Assembly (NCBI GenBank): GCA_028285145.1
Contig: JANQQC010000048.1
Span: forward strand, 1 to 64,000
Source of the DNA: Hyphomonadaceae bacterium
GTDB taxonomy: Bacteria; Pseudomonadota; Alphaproteobacteria; Caulobacterales; Hyphomonadaceae
Length of the DNA stretch: 64,000 nt
Reading direction: 5' to 3'
Positions 10,262 to 50,954 of this stretch are shown piece by piece. The notes under the pieces are model-generated. The model was not told the origin of the DNA, did no database searches, and saw only the letters and a list, made by a program, of their open reading frames with translations. The position numbers and the translations under genes are program-made. Every line of letters starts with the position of its first letter. Positions within the stretch are counted from its first letter, which is position 1.

Positions 10262-11614
10262 CTAGGCTACGCGACCGCGTTCCAGTTCCTCGCGCAAAGC
10301 GAGGCCGTACAAACCGGGATTCATAGCGACGCGGTTCAGCATTGGACGGGCGCGTGTTTCCATGTCGGTCTTGTCCGGCAGTTTGTAGGTGTCGCTCAGT
10401 AGCGCTGCGACGAACTTCGATTGTGCCTCGGCGATTGGCCAGAAAGATCCGGTTGGACGGCTCACACCAATGAAGAACAGATCTGGGCGGTCGGGCGGGA
10501 CGATGCCGCAGAAAAGCGTCAGATCATTATCGCGTGTGTCTGCGATGTCTCGGCTGAGATAGGGATAGCTGAGCTTGTAGCCTGTGGCACAGATGATCAC
10601 GTCAGCCGTAATCTCCGTTCCATCCTCAAATCGTACATCGCGGCCACGCAGTTCGGCTATGTTCGGCTTTCCCTGAACGCTACCATCTTCAAGGTGCTCC
10701 ATCAGATTTTGACAGATGGTGGGTCGCTTGATCAGTGGATGATCGGGTGCTGGCGGCAGGCCGAGTTCCGCAAAGCGCTTCATGGCTTCGCCATATGTTT
10801 CGCGGATCCGGACGCTTGCGACGTTTGTCAGGGCTTCTTCGCGAGCGAGTTCCGAAAGCGCTTTTAGCTCTTCCGGGACATCGTCGGTCGGATGTCCCAT
10901 CGGGACGCCTTCAGCGGCCGCGACACCATTGATGGTCTTCGGCATTATCCAAGTTCCGCTGCGGGCGGATAGATAGACAGCGTTTGCTGATGACAATGCG
11001 ATCTCGCACGCTAACTCACATCCGGTGTTGCCAATTCCAACAACAATGACGGTCTTGCCTTCAGTTTCGCACGGTGCCGATGGGTCGAGATAATCCTGCG
11101 CGTGGATCAATTGTCCGGAAAAGGTGCCTGGCCATTCCGGCATCTGGCAATCCCAGTAGCTGCCGCTGGCTGCCACGACAGCATCGTAGTGTTCGGCGCG
11201 CCGAGTGCTCTCGTGATCCAGTGTGACGTCCCAGCCGCCGTCATTATCAGGCACGGCTGAAACGAGTTCGGTGGCCGTGTGAATCCGTTCACGAAAACCG
11301 AACGCATCGACATACGATTCCAGCCAGTCCAGCACCCGCGAACAGTCCGGGAACTCAGGCCAGTCATCTGGCATGTCGAAATCACTGAACCGGCTCATCC
11401 GCTTGGTGGTGTTTGTGCGCAGCGATCGGTAGGCCGAAGACCGGCCGTTGGGATTCTCGATCACCCAGTGCCCACCAATGTGAGGTGACATCTCAAAACA
11501 GTCGACATCGAGCCCGGCCTCAGCGAGCGTCTTCGTGGCGGTTAGTCCGGATGGACCTGCCCCGACCACGCAGACCCGAGGGCTTCCTTTGATGACATGC
11601 GACGGCTGCGACAT
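10262..11614 (-). CDS. Flavin-containing monooxygenase (class B, NAD(P)H-dependent)
   Basis: 450 residues. The N-terminal FAD-binding Rossmann motif is VVGAGPSGL (residues about 17-25), and a second NADPH-binding motif GIGNTGCE lies in the middle. Between them FSGQLIHAQDY matches the FMO/Baeyer-Villiger fingerprint FxGxxxHxxx(Y/F). These enzymes oxygenate nucleophilic N or S atoms, or ketones, with O2 and NADPH in the cytosol. It lies 32 bp downstream of the alpha/beta hydrolase on the same strand, so the two are probably co-transcribed. A monooxygenase-hydrolase pair is a common arrangement for ketone-to-ester-to-alcohol degradation, but here that is only an inference. Confidence 0.9.
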   Translation of the reverse strand: MSQPSHVIKGSPRVCVVGAGPSGLTATKTLAEAGLDVDCFEMSPHIGGHWVIENPNGRSSAYRSLRTNTTKRMSRFSDFDMPDDWPEFPDCSRVLDWLESYVDAFGFRERIHTATELVSAVPDNDGGWDVTLDHESTRRAEHYDAVVAASGSYWDCQMPEWPGTFSGQLIHAQDYLDPSAPCETEGKTVIVVGIGNTGCELACEIALSSANAVYLSARSGTWIMPKTINGVAAAEGVPMGHPTDDVPEELKALSELAREEALTNVASVRIRETYGEAMKRFAELGLPPAPDHPLIKRPTICQNLMEHLEDGSVQGKPNIAELRGRDVRFEDGTEITADVIICATGYKLSYPYLSRDIADTRDNDLTLFCGIVPPDRPDLFFIGVSRPTGSFWPIAEAQSKFVAALLSDTYKLPDKTDMETRARPMLNRVAMNPGLYGLALREELERGRVA

Positions 11615-43823: not shown

Positions 43824-45668
43824 ATGCACGTCATGCAAAATCTCAGCACGCTAGATGACGCTCGCGCACTCCTGCAGCGCGTTTATGGCTACGAGGCCTT
43901 CCGTGGATTGCAGGAAGATGTCATCGCTGATGGTCTCGCTGGCAAAGACGTGCTGGCCGTGCTGCCGACGGGCGGGGGCAAGTCGCTCTGCTACCAGATC
44001 CCGGCGCAGCTCCGGCCGGGCTGTGGGATCGTGGTCTCGCCGCTGATTGCACTGATGGCCGATCAGGTCGACGCGCTGAAGGTCGTCGGCGTTCGGGCGG
44101 AGCGGTTGGACAGCTCAATGGACTTCGAGGCGCGGGACCGGGCGATCGCGGCGGCGCAGGCGGGCGAGATGGACCTGCTCTATGTGTCGCCGGAGGCGCT
44201 GGCGAGCGGGCTCGGGCGGCGGCTGGCGGGGATGGACGTCTCGCTCATCGCGGTGGACGAGGCGCACTGCGTCAGCCAGTGGGGCCATGACTTCCGGCCA
44301 GACTATCGCGCGCTGCATAATCTCAAGGGGCTTTTCCCCGGCGTGCCGCGCATGGCGGTGACGGCGACGGCGGATACCCGGACGCGCGACGACATCCTCG
44401 CCCAGCTCCAGCTCGACAGTCCGTCGGTTCACGTGGCGAGCTTCGACCGGCCAAACCTGACCCTCGCCGCTGAGCCCAAGCAGGGCGGGCGGACGGACCG
44501 GGTGGTCTCGCTGGTGCGCCAACGCAAGGGCCAGTCGGGCATTGTGTACGCCGCCACGAGAGACGCGACGGAGAAGCTGGCCGATGCGCTGGAGCGGGCG
44601 GGCATTCCGGCGCTGGCCTATCATGCCGGGCTGGAGGCGGAGCTTCGCTCGGATAGACAACGCCGCTTCCTGCTGGAGGAGGGGCTGGTCATGTGCGCCA
44701 CGGTCGCCTTCGGCATGGGCGTGGACAAACCCGATGTGCGCTTTGTCATTCATGCCGATCCGCCAAAGACCATCGAGGCTTACTGGCAGGAGGTCGGCCG
44801 GGCCGGGCGCGACGGGGAGCCGGCCGACGGGGTGGCGCTGTTCGGGCCGGCGGATATGCGGCGCTCGCTGAGCTGGACCTATGACAGCGACGCTGCGCCG
44901 GAGGTGAAGCAGGTGCAGGTCAACAAGACCCGCCAGCTCTATGCCTTCTTCAATGGCGACCAGTGTCGGCGGGCCGCGGTGCGATCCTATTTCGGCGAGG
45001 CCGACCCAGAGCCTTGCGGAGTGTGCGATGCCTGCCTTTCGGAAGGCGGGGAGACATTCGATGCGACGCGCTGGGCGCAGATGGCCGTGTCAGCCGTCCT
45101 CAGATGCGGCCAGCGGATCGGGCGCGGGCGGCTCGTCACCCATCTTCGCGGCGAGGCGAAGGATGACTTCGACCAGGACCTCTCCACGCTCTCGACTTAT
45201 GGCATCGGCGAAGACCTCGCCAAGCCCGGCTGGAATGCGGTGTTCGACGCCCTCTTGTTCTCTGGCCTGCTGGCCGAAGGCGGGGAGGCGATGCGGCCGG
45301 TGATCGTCGTGCCCGATGCCGACGCGGCCAAGGCCCTGTTCAAGGGCGAGCGTACCCTGATGCTGCGCGAGGACCCGGCGGCCCGGCGCACGCGCAAAAA
45401 GGGCGGCTCAGCGGCCTCCAAAGCCATGGTCGACGACCTCTCCTCCCGCGACCGCGCACTGTTCGACGCCCTGCGGGACTGGCGGCTGGAAACGGCCAAG
45501 GCCGGCGGCGTGCCGCCCTATGTGATCTTCCACGACAAGACGCTCGCCGCGATCGCCCATGACCGTCCGTCGACGACCGAAGCGCTGCGCGCGATCAGCG
45601 GCGTGGGAGAGAAAAAGGCCGAGCGCTATGCGAGCGAGGTCGCCCGCATCGTTCAGGAGGCGGCCTGA
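43824..45668 (+). CDS. recQ: ATP-dependent DNA helicase RecQ
   Basis: 614 residues, a 3'-5' helicase in recombination and repair. Walker A is LPTGGGKSLCYQIPA, the aromatic-rich loop with DEAH box is DEAHCVSQWGHDFRPDY. Zinc-binding cysteines are in the RQC domain (CRRAAV...EPCGVCDAC), and a C-terminal HRDC domain covers about the last 80 residues (FHDKTLAAIAHDRP, SGVGEKKAERYA). Start 43824 or 43833; both are ATG without a strong RBS. GC content rises sharply inside it. The 3' end overlaps the next gene tail-to-tail by 16 bases. Confidence 0.95.
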   Translation: MHVMQNLSTLDDARALLQRVYGYEAFRGLQEDVIADGLAGKDVLAVLPTGGGKSLCYQIPAQLRPGCGIVVSPLIALMADQVDALKVVGVRAERLDSSMDFEARDRAIAAAQAGEMDLLYVSPEALASGLGRRLAGMDVSLIAVDEAHCVSQWGHDFRPDYRALHNLKGLFPGVPRMAVTATADTRTRDDILAQLQLDSPSVHVASFDRPNLTLAAEPKQGGRTDRVVSLVRQRKGQSGIVYAATRDATEKLADALERAGIPALAYHAGLEAELRSDRQRRFLLEEGLVMCATVAFGMGVDKPDVRFVIHADPPKTIEAYWQEVGRAGRDGEPADGVALFGPADMRRSLSWTYDSDAAPEVKQVQVNKTRQLYAFFNGDQCRRAAVRSYFGEADPEPCGVCDACLSEGGETFDATRWAQMAVSAVLRCGQRIGRGRLVTHLRGEAKDDFDQDLSTLSTYGIGEDLAKPGWNAVFDALLFSGLLAEGGEAMRPVIVVPDADAAKALFKGERTLMLREDPAARRTRKKGGSAASKAMVDDLSSRDRALFDALRDWRLETAKAGGVPPYVIFHDKTLAAIAHDRPSTTEALRAISGVGEKKAERYASEVARIVQEAA

Positions 45669-46435
45669 GCAGCCGCAGACACCGGCGGCCCGCGCTCCAG
45701 CGCCAGACGGGCAAGCCGGGTCAGCTCTGCCAGCGCCCCTGAGATGAGCGGGTCTCCGCCGCGCCGGCGATAGCCCGGCGGCCAGCCGGGGCGCAGCGGC
45801 GTCACACGGACCGGCCGGCGATGCGCAGGCGGCAAGGCTCCCATCGCCGCAGACCGGGCGAGCCGGCGCGCCATGCGCCGCGCGGCGGGAGCCGGGTCCT
45901 CCAGCAGGCTTTGCAGGGCGGAGAGGCGCGCAAAGGTGCGCGCGGCCTCGACCGCGCGATCCGCATCCCGCGTGCCCTGAACCGGCGGTGTCCACGTCGC
46001 ACCAGCCTCCATCCGGCGGATGCGGGGGACTTCGGCGTCCGGCACGCGGCGCTGGTCGTTATGCGGCCGAGGAAAGCCGGGCAGCGTGTCTGTCAGGGGG
46101 AGCAGCGCTTGCCGCTCATCCCGGCGAAGGCCGGGATCTCCGGAAACAGGGCCCGGACGGGCTGAAAAAGATCCCGGATCAAGTCCGGGATCAGCGGAGA
46201 TTTTGACCTCCGGCAGGCCGTCCATCATCGCGGCCAGAAGCACCAGCCGGCGGGCCATGGCCTCGGCCGGGCGGATAAGGCGGAGCGCGGCGAGGCGCAC
46301 ACAGGCCGGCAGCTGCGCCGGAGCCGGCCCGGACGCCCAGCCGACCAGAGCACAAACCTGCGCCACCAGCGCCCGCAGCCGGGGCCAGTTCATCCGCGCG
46401 CAATACGCGGCCTCGGAAGCGAGCGCCTGATCCAT
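45653..46435 (-). CDS. Hypothetical protein with an in-frame palindromic repeat insertion
   Basis: 260 residues, very rich in Ala, Arg and Pro, with no signal peptide or motif I recognise. The N-terminus starts MDQALASEAAYCARMNWPRLR. Codons copied from 46116-46194 give ADPGLDPGSF...GDPGLRRDERQ, which is the translation of an alphaproteobacterial-style palindromic repeat, in frame and without a stop. The C-terminal part (GGDPLISGALAELTRLARLALE) is helical. Its first 48 codons and upstream region are duplicated at 47236-47420. The gene is likely real because the 5' end was maintained in two copies, but function is unknown. Confidence 0.6.
   Translation of the reverse strand: MDQALASEAAYCARMNWPRLRALVAQVCALVGWASGPAPAQLPACVRLAALRLIRPAEAMARRLVLLAAMMDGLPEVKISADPGLDPGSFSARPGPVSGDPGLRRDERQALLPLTDTLPGFPRPHNDQRRVPDAEVPRIRRMEAGATWTPPVQGTRDADRAVEAARTFARLSALQSLLEDPAPAARRMARRLARSAAMGALPPAHRRPVRVTPLRPGWPPGYRRRGGDPLISGALAELTRLARLALERGPPVSAAAQAAS
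46116..46194. repeat. Paired palindromic repeat element (ATCCCGG/CCGGGAT type)
   Basis: Two hairpins. The first is ATCCCGGC-GAAG-GCCGGGAT (46118-46137), the second GATCCCGGA-TCAAG-TCCGGGATC (46170-46192), 32 bases apart. Repeats of this wording are scattered through many alphaproteobacterial genomes. Here the element lies inside a coding sequence and is read through in frame. Confidence 0.8.
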
Positions 46436-46487
46436 CGGCAGGGATCATAGCTGTGCCGACAAGGCGGGGGATAAGTTTGCTGGATGG
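46293..46487. repeat. Direct repeat, left copy (5' end of the 45653-46435 gene)
   Basis: 195 bp comprising the first 143 coding bases and about 52 upstream bases of the minus-strand hypothetical gene. It matches 47236-47420 with about 19 mismatches and one 9-bp gap by hand alignment, near 90% identity. The stretch between the copies is foreign to both. Confidence 0.9.
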
Positions 46488-46717
46488 GTAATGGGGATGG
46501 GCGAAAGGGTGGGGATAGAGCCACTTAATACCAATAGGGACGTCGGAAATTATGTTTGCAATGTCTACTTTGGGTAAGGGTTGGAAATCCAATTCTAATC
46601 CTCGTGAGCGGCTAGCGAGAGTAATATTAGCAAACAAGGAAAAGTGATTTTGATTATCAAATCACACAGTTTTATCAATGAGATTGCATTTTAAGGTAGA
46701 ATCTCCATATTGCAGAA
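46488..46717. other. AT-rich spacer ahead of the cysteine-cluster gene
   Basis: Clearly AT-richer than the flanks (for example AATCACACAGTTTTATCAA). It holds an imperfect hairpin GTGATTT-TGATTATC-AAATCAC at 46645-46666. No gene is supported here. It probably carries the promoter of the following gene; I see no good consensus. Confidence 0.4.
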
Positions 46718-47230
46718 ATGGCTGTTTGCAACTTTGCCCAAGCTTGGCCCCGCAATCCACAAGTGCCTTCTGTGTGGCACGACTCCTCGCGCGATCTATG
46801 GGTGAAGACGCCTTTTGCGAATGACAACCGCGAAACGCTCACAAACGGCAAGACTAAAGGCGTGAAGCTTAACTGGAACAAAGCCGACAAGCACTGGGAG
46901 CTTGCCAAAGGGCGCTACGAGGAGATCGTAGCAGTGCTATTGCATAAATGGGGTAGGTGTTGGGTTATTCAAAATCAGAACCTTCAAGAGACATGTGCGT
47001 ATAGCTGTCGCACCGCGAAAGGTCCCGACTGCACATGCTCTTGCGGCGGTGTCTATCACGGGAGCGAGAGTCACGAGCGCTGGTACGATATTGGCGAAAC
47101 GTTTTCGACCCGGCACACGGGCACCGAGCTATCGTGCCGAATACTCACACCGAACGACCTCACCGCTGGTGCAGTCGCCAAGATCAAGAAAGAGCCGAGA
47201 GTGTACGCGCCAAACGACCCTTGGCCGTAA
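46718..47230 (+). CDS. Hypothetical protein with a Cys/His cluster
   Basis: 170 residues. The notable part is C-x3-C-x7-C-x-C-x-C-x4-H (Cys93, 97, 105, 107, 109 and His114, in ETCAYSCRTAKGPDCTCSC), a likely zinc or other metal site. The N-terminal half is charged with many Trp and Lys. I recall similar CxxxC...DCxCSCxGxxHG proteins in accessory regions, without a known function. No RBS is obvious before the ATG, so the start is uncertain. It sits alone between the two direct-repeat copies and was presumably brought in with them. Confidence 0.6.
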   Translation: MAVCNFAQAWPRNPQVPSVWHDSSRDLWVKTPFANDNRETLTNGKTKGVKLNWNKADKHWELAKGRYEEIVAVLLHKWGRCWVIQNQNLQETCAYSCRTAKGPDCTCSCGGVYHGSESHERWYDIGETFSTRHTGTELSCRILTPNDLTAGAVAKIKKEPRVYAPNDPWP

Positions 47231-47235
47231 TCAAC

Positions 47236-47369
47236 AGGCGCACACAGGCGGGCAGCTGCGCCGGAGCCGGGCCAGACGTCCAGCTGACAAGTGTGCAGAC
47301 CTGCGCCCGCAAACGGGGCCAGTTCATCCGCGCGCAATATGCCGCCTCAGAAGCGAGCGCCTGATCCAT
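47236..47369 (-). pseudogene. Truncated copy of the 45653-46435 gene
   Basis: Begins MDQALASEAAYCARMNWPRLRAQ and keeps the ancestral frame for about 45 codons, with a 3-codon deletion, until the repeat ends at 47236; then it runs into unrelated sequence. It is a remnant of the duplication, not a functional gene. Confidence 0.85.
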
Positions 47370-47420
47370 CGGGAGGGATCATAGCTTTGCGGACAAGGAG
47401 GGGGATAAGTTTGCTGGATG
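47236..47420. repeat. Direct repeat, right copy
   Basis: 185-bp second copy of 46293-46487, containing the truncated gene start and its upstream sequence. Identity stops abruptly at 47236 on the left and after GGATG at 47420 on the right. Confidence 0.9.
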
Positions 47421-47524
47421 TGTATCAACGACTAGCGGAAGGGCGGGGACAAACCATCGACTATCAAGTTCGCGAAGCAAAACCAGCGACCAAGCTCTAG
47501 CAGCGTGTGATCGAAGTCCGATAG

Positions 47525-48070
47525 TTAGGTGATTTCAAAGGAGCGAGCTCCGACTGTTAGGTCCAAGATCTTGTTTTGCAGAAGACGAACGAGGTCTTCC
47601 GTCGCTGCAAGCTCATCAATCTCAGCTCTGGTCACAACAAGAAGCCGTCTTTGATCGCGCTGGAACGCAGTGCGAATAGTGTCATGAGCAGCCCTTAGGT
47701 CCTTCGCTGTGCCTGTAATGCCTTGGGCCGCTACAAATACGCCATGATCGAGATGCATTTCATTCATCTTAGCAAGGAAATTCCTAATCTCCGCAGCACC
47801 AACTGGGCCGGCCACGTTCTTACATTCCGCTACCAGTATGGTTGGCAGAAAGTCGAAGCCGGTTGGAACTCGCGAGTTCCAAAAGCAAACATCAATCTCA
47901 GCACTCCCCGCAGCGTTCAATAGATTGTTTCCGTGATGCCTGATGCCGTCACACTCGGAGAATAGGTATGCGACTAACCTTTCCAACGCTCTACCTCTTG
48001 CAGTCGCGTCTCCTGCTCCGTTCATCTGTATTAGTTCGTTGTCGATTGTACCCTTGTCGTAAGTGCCCAT
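47525..48070 (-). CDS. Mrr-like restriction endonuclease domain protein (PD-(D/E)xK)
   Basis: 181 residues. The nuclease core is readable: GRALERLVAYLF (Glu30), SAEIDVCFW (Asp60), TILVAECKN (Glu82-x-Lys84), followed by GAAEIRNFLAKM. This is the E...D...(E/Q)xK layout of type IV Mrr-type and related restriction nucleases. The C-terminal part LLVVTRAEIDELAATEDLVRLL resembles the end of the same fold. No other domain is present. The ATG at 48070 is 1 base after the stop of the upstream gene, so the two are translated together. Codon use and base composition differ from recQ nearby, fitting acquisition. Confidence 0.75.
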   Translation of the reverse strand: MGTYDKGTIDNELIQMNGAGDATARGRALERLVAYLFSECDGIRHHGNNLLNAAGSAEIDVCFWNSRVPTGFDFLPTILVAECKNVAGPVGAAEIRNFLAKMNEMHLDHGVFVAAQGITGTAKDLRAAHDTIRTAFQRDQRRLLVVTRAEIDELAATEDLVRLLQNKILDLTVGARSFEIT

Positions 48071-48071
48071 G

Positions 48072-49007
48072 TCACTGCACCAAGTGGGCCAGACGATTGC
48101 GGGCTGAGCGCATAGCTGACGCCAACTCGGAGTGTGCCAGGAGTTCCTCAATTTCTGTTAGTCCGACGACGCAAATAAGTGGCGACAAGCTGGTTGCTCG
48201 AAGAGAAGACTCGGAACCTCCATCAACTACCACTAGTCCTGCAGCAGCACCGAGTTTCTCCGTGTACCGGCGAACTTGGTTGATTGCTCCTCGAGTATTG
48301 CGGACTCGTTGTCCTGCCTTGAGTTCAACAACGAGCGGGCCACGAAAGAAGCGATGCTTCGGCGAAAACCATGCCGCAAAGTCAGGTAGAAATTTCTTCT
48401 GGTCACTCATTTCCTGTGGTTCGACTGCGAAAGAATCAATCTCGGACGAGAACTTGAATGCGTTAAAGAGTCGATGCTGTGCGGAGTTCTCAAAATTTAG
48501 GTTTTTCAGGTTAGACCGACGCTCTTTGGAGCTCTGAAAATGCAAGCTCTCTACATCCCGATTTGATGTAAGCATATCGAAGTCGACTGGCTGTTCCTGA
48601 AGTGGGCTTCTAAGTAGATCGACGTGCTCAAGAAACGCGCCTAGCTGAAACTTAAGTGACGCCTCGTTATCCATTGGCACGGATAGAACTGCTGCCGATT
48701 GAAGTACCGACGGAATTGGTCCCTTGCCTATTATAAGCAGTGGGCGTCCCAGTGCTGTTGCCAACCCAAGTTCAAAAGATACGTTCGAATTTATCCGCTC
48801 TTCTATCACTGCGATTACGAAATCGGCCTTACCTATTAACTCAGTTGTTGAATTGAGCAGTGATTTGTCGCGTGTGCTGAGGTCGTCGAGGCTCAGTATC
48901 TCCACGCCGTAGAGCGCGAGTGTCGAATTGAGTAACGACAAGTTGGTGTCGAAAGGTGCTGAGACGAAAGCTCTGTATGCTTTTTGGGTACCTGCTGGTT
49001 CAGCCAT
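48072..49007 (-). CDS. TIR/deoxyribosyltransferase-like domain fused to a PD-(D/E)xK nuclease (candidate defence effector)
   Basis: 311 residues in two domains. Residues about 10-130: FVSAPFDTNLSLLNSTL, ADFVIAVIEE and NVSFELGLATALGRPLLII. This pattern fits TIR or nucleoside 2-deoxyribosyltransferase folds, with Glu79 as the candidate catalytic or sensing glutamate. Residues about 165-265: LPDF (Asp209), LVVELK (Glu228-x-Lys230) and AINQVRRY (Gln244), a PD-(D/E)xK nuclease reminiscent of the Shedu/DUF4263 core. AGGAA is 6 bases ahead of the ATG at 49007. First gene of a two-gene unit with the Mrr-like protein. Neither the exact family of the N-domain nor the trigger can be decided by eye. It is AT-richer than the chromosome around it. 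Confidence 0.7.
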   Translation of the reverse strand: MAEPAGTQKAYRAFVSAPFDTNLSLLNSTLALYGVEILSLDDLSTRDKSLLNSTTELIGKADFVIAVIEERINSNVSFELGLATALGRPLLIIGKGPIPSVLQSAAVLSVPMDNEASLKFQLGAFLEHVDLLRSPLQEQPVDFDMLTSNRDVESLHFQSSKERRSNLKNLNFENSAQHRLFNAFKFSSEIDSFAVEPQEMSDQKKFLPDFAAWFSPKHRFFRGPLVVELKAGQRVRNTRGAINQVRRYTEKLGAAAGLVVVDGGSESSLRATSLSPLICVVGLTEIEELLAHSELASAMRSARNRLAHLVQ

Positions 49008-49407
49008 GCGCTGTTCCTTACTGACGGTCTCAGAAGCGATACTAACCCTGTACGCTTGGTAGCATTCAAGCGAAAATCTGCAACCTAGGATGGCGAAGGT
49101 GGCGCTTGGCTTTGCGGCAGCTCTCCCTGAGCTGCTCACAACACATCCATTTCATTTTACGATCTCTCAGGCTGACGTTAGATGCGTATTTAGGTCGGTT
49201 GTGTTTTCGTAGCTGGGTCTCGGCAATGCGTTGAGACCAGACCTTGCCGCCAATGCACGATGGGATTCGTGCATCGCTGACAAACGAATAGGGCCATGGC
49301 TAGGGCTTCCAGTGTGAAGCTCCTGCTCCATGAGTCGGAGGACAAGGATAGGGATCAGATCAACCAGAAACGGCAGAGCATCAAAGCCTAGCCAAGATGG
49401 TCTTCGA
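49008..49407. other. 400-bp non-coding stretch upstream of the nuclease operon
   Basis: It should hold the operon promoter. Two hairpins are visible: GGTCTC...GAGACC at about 49217-49239 and ATGCACGA-TGGGAT-TCGTGCAT at 49253-49274. An 87-codon open frame on the minus strand (49167-49430) has no RBS or recognisable content, and I do not call it a gene. An undetected small RNA is possible but unsupported. Confidence 0.35.
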
Positions 49408-50052: not shown

Positions 50053-50129
50053 GACGCCGACATCCAGCAGGGCGTCTGACCGTCCGCAGGGGCAGGGAGT
50101 TCCATGACGGCCCAGACGCGATAGGTCTC
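50053..50129 (-). pseudogene. Broken copy of an internal part of the 50682-50954 gene
   Basis: 77 bp nearly identical to 50784-50861 (about 8 mismatches and a 1-base deletion by eye). The deletion shifts the frame in the middle of what corresponds to VMEFACPCG, and both ends of the gene are missing. Confidence 0.85.
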
Positions 50130-50167
50130 ACTGGGGATCAGCGCTAAAGCCTGGCGAAGGCGGTTTT

Positions 50168-50557
50168 TTACGCCAGCTCCTGCAAGAGCTGGATAAGGTT
50201 GCCGCACGTGTCGTTGAAGATGGCGATCTTGACGGTTCCGGCATCGGTCGGCGGCTGGGTGAACTCGACCCCCTTGGCCCGGAGCCGCGCATATTCGGCG
50301 TCGATATCGTCAACGCTGAAGGCGGTGAATGGAATGCCGTCCTGCATCAAGGCGGCCTGATAGGTGCGTGTGGCGGGATGCTGGTTGGGCTCCAGCGCCA
50401 GTTCGACTCCGTCGGGTTCGTCTTTGGACACAAGGGTCAGCCAGCGGAATTCGCCGAGCGGAATATCGTGCTTCACAACGAAGCCGAGCGTTTCCGTGTA
50501 AAAGGCGAGGGCTTTCGCCTGATCGTCGACGCACACGCTTTTAATGTACATTTTCAT
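50168..50557 (-). CDS. VOC (glyoxalase/bleomycin resistance) superfamily protein
   Basis: 129 residues, two beta-alpha-beta-beta-beta units: IKSVCVDDQAKALAFYTETLGF and IPFTAFSVDDIDAEYARLRAKGVEF, ending NDTCGNLIQLLQ. Typical metal-binding VOC enzymes end DPxGNxIEL; here the Glu position is Gln and the N-terminal His position is Cys. A metal may therefore be bound differently or not at all. GAGGAGG is 8 bases ahead of the ATG. Confidence 0.88.
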   Translation of the reverse strand: MKMYIKSVCVDDQAKALAFYTETLGFVVKHDIPLGEFRWLTLVSKDEPDGVELALEPNQHPATRTYQAALMQDGIPFTAFSVDDIDAEYARLRAKGVEFTQPPTDAGTVKIAIFNDTCGNLIQLLQELA

Positions 50558-50681: not shown

Positions 50682-50954
50682 TCACACCGTCTCCACCTCT
50701 TTCGGGGCTTCGGTACGGCGCGTCTTTTCCTTGGCCTTGGGCTTGGGCAGGAGGCGGAAGCGGGTCTGGCACCAGGCGAAGCCGACGCCGACATCCAGCA
50801 GGGCGTCGGAGCGTCCACAGGGGCAGGCGAACTCCATGACCGCCCAGACGCGGTAAGTCTCGCCGGCGACGAGCGGCACGGGCTCGCCCGTGACATGGTT
50901 CGGGGCCGCGTTCACGCACAGCACCAGATCGCCGGACCCAACATCGTAACTCAT
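50682..50954 (-). CDS. Hypothetical protein with CPCGRS motif
   Basis: 90 residues: a beta-rich core (GDLVLCVNAAP, GETYRVWAVMEFACPCGRSDALLDVGV) and a basic Lys-rich tail. The Cys pair could bind metal together with Cys13. I do not know the family. A fragment of it is duplicated at 50053-50129, which suggests that this copy is the resident gene. Confidence 0.6.
   Translation of the reverse strand: MSYDVGSGDLVLCVNAAPNHVTGEPVPLVAGETYRVWAVMEFACPCGRSDALLDVGVGFAWCQTRFRLLPKPKAKEKTRRTEAPKEVETV
50784..50861. repeat. Duplicated segment, intact copy
   Basis: Inside the 90-residue gene; matches 50053-50129. Together the two copies flank the VOC gene and mark one edge of the rearranged region. Confidence 0.85.

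Follow-up and report, generated by a model that had tools for sequence, protein, structure and literature searches.

A gene of a mobile, defence-associated family between an intact and a truncated copy of a resident gene start in a Hyphomonadaceae bacterium

How does a foreign-looking gene come to lie between an intact resident gene and a second, cut-off copy of the start of that same gene? The question is raised by a locus of a Hyphomonadaceae bacterium in which gene X is flanked on one side by gene A and on the other by A', a fragment repeating the beginning of A. We analysed the locus within a window of 64,000 nucleotides (assembly GCA_028285145.1, contig JANQQC010000048.1, positions 1 to 64,000), to which all positions refer unless another locus is named; the features are collected in Table 1.

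Table 1. Positions of the features of the locus in the window
Feature	Position	Strand	Pfam match
Gene A, intact, 260 aa, uncharacterised multicopy family	45653..46435	-	
Left repeat copy: initial 47 codons of gene A and promoter module	46293..46515	-	
Promoter-like module core of A (CTTATCCCC-N16-CTATGAT)	46444..46475	-	
Gene X, putatively captured gene, 170 aa, Cys/His-rich family	46718..47230	+	
Right repeat copy A': truncated start of A, 44 codons, and promoter module	47236..47449	-	
Promoter-like module core of A'	47378..47409	-	
Mrr-type restriction endonuclease-like ORF, low-GC neighbour	47525..48151	-	PF04471, E 9e-7
ORF with weak nucleoside 2-deoxyribosyltransferase match, low-GC neighbour	48072..49139	-	PF05014, E 1e-4, under curated cut-off
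B': frameshifted internal fragment of gene B	50053..50143	-	
VOC/glyoxalase-family gene, between B' and B	50168..50557	-	PF00903
Gene B, intact, 90 aa, conserved in the bacterial family	50682..50954	-	

The duplicated start of gene A and the gene beside it

A preliminary description of this DNA had reported direct copies around a gene, with about 19 mismatches and one 9-bp gap. The self-comparison of the entire window by BLASTN gave nearly the same figures: positions 46293-46490 and 47236-47424 were identical at 169 of 198 positions (85%, 20 mismatches, E 2e-60), the 9 gap columns all belonged to one gap, and ungapped extension went on to 46515/47449. The left copy, as described, belongs to an intact ORF of 260 codons, whereas the right one holds only first codons and the upstream region: A' comprises 44 of the first 47 codons of A, in frame, and then ends, breaking off 5 bp from the stop codon of X (in the order X stop, 5 bp, A'). 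The identical run at the gene A junction is of 14 bp only. At its right edge the repeat ends together with a promoter module that is conserved at many sites, and thus this edge need not be a junction.

The two copies diverged under purifying selection. In the 44 common codons we counted 15 substitutions, distributed 4/0/11 over the three codon positions, with the gap in-frame, a dN of 0.031 and a dS of 0.47. Random substitutions in this sequence would change an amino acid in 73% of cases; the probability of at most three such changes is 3e-5 under neutrality of the whole set of 15 substitutions, and 0.04 for 8 neutral ones. Since the differences are nearly all silent, A' is not an old dead duplicate, and this absence of neutral decay speaks against the earlier suggestion of a duplicated insertion target, if taken as a copy that arose in place and decayed afterwards. 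Rather, A' either diverged while functional and was truncated later or recently, or came in already diverged. Pairs of this type are rare in the genome: in 400 kb (twenty 20-kb stretches), no other two sequences lying within 5 kb of each other matched over 90 bp or more with an identity of 80% or higher.

Gene A is convergent with RecQ and overlaps its end, an arrangement not found in the RecQ loci of 11 relatives. It has no named family in Pfam, PHROGs, NCBIfam or PADLOC, and no close relative among the named genomes, where the best segments reached 38-50%; the comparison set consisted of 100 relatives from genera other than that of the host. Several dispersed copies per genome are present in this bacterial family, in a Henriciella MAG and in Neomegalonema MAGs. 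The Henriciella copies are 97-100% alike at the DNA level and stand at separate loci (L060, L061, L062), with a common block that begins within the gene and first codons that differ, as if gene bodies had been converted between paralogues. The structure predicted for one A relative consists largely of helices, its middle being disordered, and was too uncertain for further searches (mean pLDDT 59); matches of A relatives to the Pfam family SKA2 reached E 0.002 at best and were regarded as noise caused by helical sequence. Inside gene A, an in-frame palindromic repeat (CCGGGATCTCC...GATCCCGGATC, window 46123-46200) resembles those between promoter boxes at other loci, and appears to encode residues of A.

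The gene between the copies had been described as AT-rich with a cysteine cluster. The stretch holding X has a GC content of 46-55%, compared to a background of 60 ± 3%, and the cluster reads C-x3-C ... C-x-C-S-C. The 11 members aligned have five invariant Cys, one invariant His and several Trp in common, and the invariant Cys/His residues suggest that the family may bind metal. Homologues with roughly 27-40% identity were found in three relatives, in 22 plasmid records, the plasmids being from many genera, and in seven Streptomyces phages; none was found in viral contigs. We read 12 of their neighbourhoods. On the plasmids of Mesorhizobium and Bosea, X is convergent with an annotated CBASS phospholipase, behind which a nucleotidyltransferase is located; in Bradyrhizobium a patatin takes the position of the phospholipase beside X; and in Roseivivax a nucleotidyltransferase and a SAVED-domain gene lie near X. 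Several other neighbourhoods contain toxin-antitoxin or Abi genes. The occurrence of X relatives on plasmids and phages, near CBASS, toxin-antitoxin and Abi genes, identifies X as a mobile, defence-associated gene. Considering the alphaproteobacterial plasmids on which the X family adjoins CBASS-type genes, which are four (L235, L236, L237, L241), X is convergent with the phospholipase or patatin gene in three.

CBASS genes were seen solely beside X homologues on plasmids: among the ORFs of the locus, searches with Pfam and PADLOC gave no CD-NTase or other core gene of CBASS or of a known defence system. In agreement with the preliminary description, Pfam scans of the main ORFs from 38 to 62 kb revealed no transposase or integrase.

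A promoter-like module and a structured repeat

The duplicated stretch includes a block that recurs in the genome at many other sites, most of them close to the ends of contigs. The pattern CTTATCCCC-N{12,20}-CTATRMT had 25 matches in the genome, all of the same 32-nt length, and 0 for the reversed control; upstream of the module lies a box, CTATCCCC. Four of the 25 modules stand before members of the A family, namely A, A' and two paralogues (L002 and L038), 19 precede a repeat of about 350 nt, one precedes another ORF and one is at a contig end. Neither this 25-fold module nor the scar at gene B, described below, was seen in the earlier reading.

The 350-nt repeat is present in about twenty copies in one genome (L083:1533-1890, L084, L077, L082, L102 and contig ends) and falls into several subtypes. 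Its folding was more stable than that of shuffles (z -2.2 and -3.05), and compensatory changes were observed at three pairs, none of which was broken, in a set of only six fairly similar sequences. No match was obtained in Rfam at the gathering threshold, the 100 relatives gave only three marginal matches, all from one genome, and a literature search for a repeat of this kind in the bacterial family offered nothing relevant. Two of the copies (92% alike) lie in facing orientation, separated by about 10 kb (G000:C29:30858-42336).

GC upstream of the modules is under the background (median 0.579 vs. mean 0.598, P 3e-4), a mild sign of foreign DNA there. A rather doubtful extension is that the start of A belongs to an unrecognised regulon or mobile family, in which the rigid CTTATCCCC-N16-CTATGAT module with its upstream CTATCCCC box would drive A-family genes and about twenty structured RNAs outside Rfam, and foreign genes would settle beside the modules. 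An integron-like element or a transposon end was also considered for the 80-bp dispersed element and was not favoured: the element is a block that resembles a promoter and keeps a fixed spacing, and inspection by eye revealed neither terminal inverted repeats nor target duplications. The module, set before an uncharacterised protein family and a structured-RNA-like repeat, may be a by-product of larger value than the scar itself.

A second scar and the origin of the locus

The window self-comparison that confirmed the A/A' pair added one more pair of the kind, the sole other one in the window, at 3 kb from the first scar: positions 50053-50143 and 50784-50875, with the VOC gene between them. 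B and B' have a dN of 0.065 and a dS of 0.57, a divergence similar to that of A and A', and B' carries a frameshift. Gene B is single-copy in most relatives. A genome of another genus, G019, has a B/B' scar of its own (L186:9168-9283 and 10353-10474) with a single unrelated gene, different from the one found here, between the two pieces; in that case the fragment is the end of B and lies downstream of the intact gene. In both genomes bearing a B', this was closest to the B of its own genome among the orthologues compared, and therefore the copies separated after the genera did. In our window B' is without the end of B, so that at least one further rearrangement is needed at B. A conserved A...B synteny was also considered and was rejected, since no A homologue was seen in 18 of the 19 intact-B neighbourhoods, and in the remaining one, that of G019, the paralogue near B is a different one.

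Our preferred explanation, to which we assign a probability of about 0.5, is that X was captured through one-sided homologous recombination. The incoming DNA would have carried X next to a diverged copy of the gene A start, and this copy alone would have paired it with the resident gene A. Such DNA may have circularised and integrated by a single crossover or, alternatively, may have used homology at one end while its other end was joined without homology inside A. Both routes would produce the order A (whole), X, and a second A start that is cut off and retains its promoter, the two copies having the same direction. The insert is indeed flanked by the same resident gene on both sides, whole on one and partial on the other and in one orientation, as expected for one-sided capture, and one-sided integration is a plausible and partly supported account of the layout at A by a single event. 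The preliminary description had likewise proposed that cargo entered through homologous recombination, a partial copy of a gene serving as its flank: this proposal agrees with the layout, with the 15% divergence, with substitutions that are mostly silent and with a foreign-looking X, none of which amounts to proof. The recombination route, its direction and the choice of the newcomer copy are inferred. Several points count against capture: no empty site was seen among the relatives, all of other genera, X was not found adjoining an A-family gene elsewhere, the fragment at B calls for a further rearrangement, and a crossover within about 200 bp at 85% identity would be inefficient.

The main rival, possible at odds clearly short of even, is that A and A' were once complete tandem paralogues, both working under the same kind of promoter, and that X was inserted later, replacing the last 200 codons or so of A'. 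This would explain both the purifying selection on the two copies and the whole promoter module at each, and finds a parallel in the multicopy A family of several genomes, near-identical in one. It is at odds, however, with the about 30 other A-family loci examined, each of which had one copy and no second one in the stretch fetched, and with gene B, mostly single-copy in relatives and yet leaving the same type of fragment here and in G019. The order of the locus (A-X-A'-cargo-B'-VOC-B), the common strand of its four A and B pieces and the about equal divergence of A/A' and B/B' would also fit a nested arrangement, in which a diverged A', the Mrr-like and deoxyribosyltransferase-like ORFs and B' entered inside a resident A...B, the middle block being the newcomer and X and the VOC gene older residents. 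We consider this unlikely, as joins at two non-homologous points would be required and A and B are not neighbours in relatives.

Island integrases replace gene ends at insertion, and a site-specific element might similarly have entered the start of gene A, bringing a replacement start. In its favour, the gene is kept whole with the displaced fragment on the far side, and the piece displaced in G019 corresponds to the end of B. Nevertheless, the lack of an integrase among the ORFs scanned, the shortness of the identical run at the A junction and the duplicated part of A or B, which differs case by case, make this origin quite improbable. Finally, the genome is a draft of 67 contigs with many repeats at contig ends, which might suggest an assembly artefact or a chance similarity; the copies differ by 15%, in a coding-type pattern, the E value is far too low for chance and the pair is internal to a contig of 84 kb, and an artefact is thus very unlikely.

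Relation to known systems

The capture proposed at A is an event of a known kind. Homology-facilitated illegitimate recombination and single-crossover capture of linear DNA occur in Acinetobacter, Streptococcus and Pseudomonas. The neighbourhood recalls defence islands, in that relatives of X lie beside CBASS and toxin-antitoxin genes and an Mrr-type nuclease is next door here, but between A and B we recognised no known defence system in complete form.

In the Vibrio T6SS arrays, a displacement akin to homology-facilitated illegitimate recombination, leaving remnants, has been proposed (PMC5361080). As in the effector-immunity arrays of V. cholerae, our locus has a one-sided homologous anchor, a newly inserted gene and a remnant of the old gene pushed aside; it differs in having a single unrelated gene beside housekeeping genes and no effector-immunity logic. 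Another likeness is to single-crossover capture in E. coli conjugation, in which 56 of 60 such integrants had a partial duplication of the homologous locus and 14 sequenced clones had duplications of 109-950 bp, attributed to the single crossover of a circularised fragment (PMC3240628). There, as in homology-facilitated illegitimate recombination, foreign DNA is held by homology at one end and a gene is partly duplicated beside the insert; here, unlike in those systems, the event is read from a finished scar whose copies differ by 15%, without a donor or a set of junctions. With a second scar 3 kb off and a parallel in another genus, the scar at A would be a legible record of the integrase-free entry of a single defence-associated gene into a chromosome.
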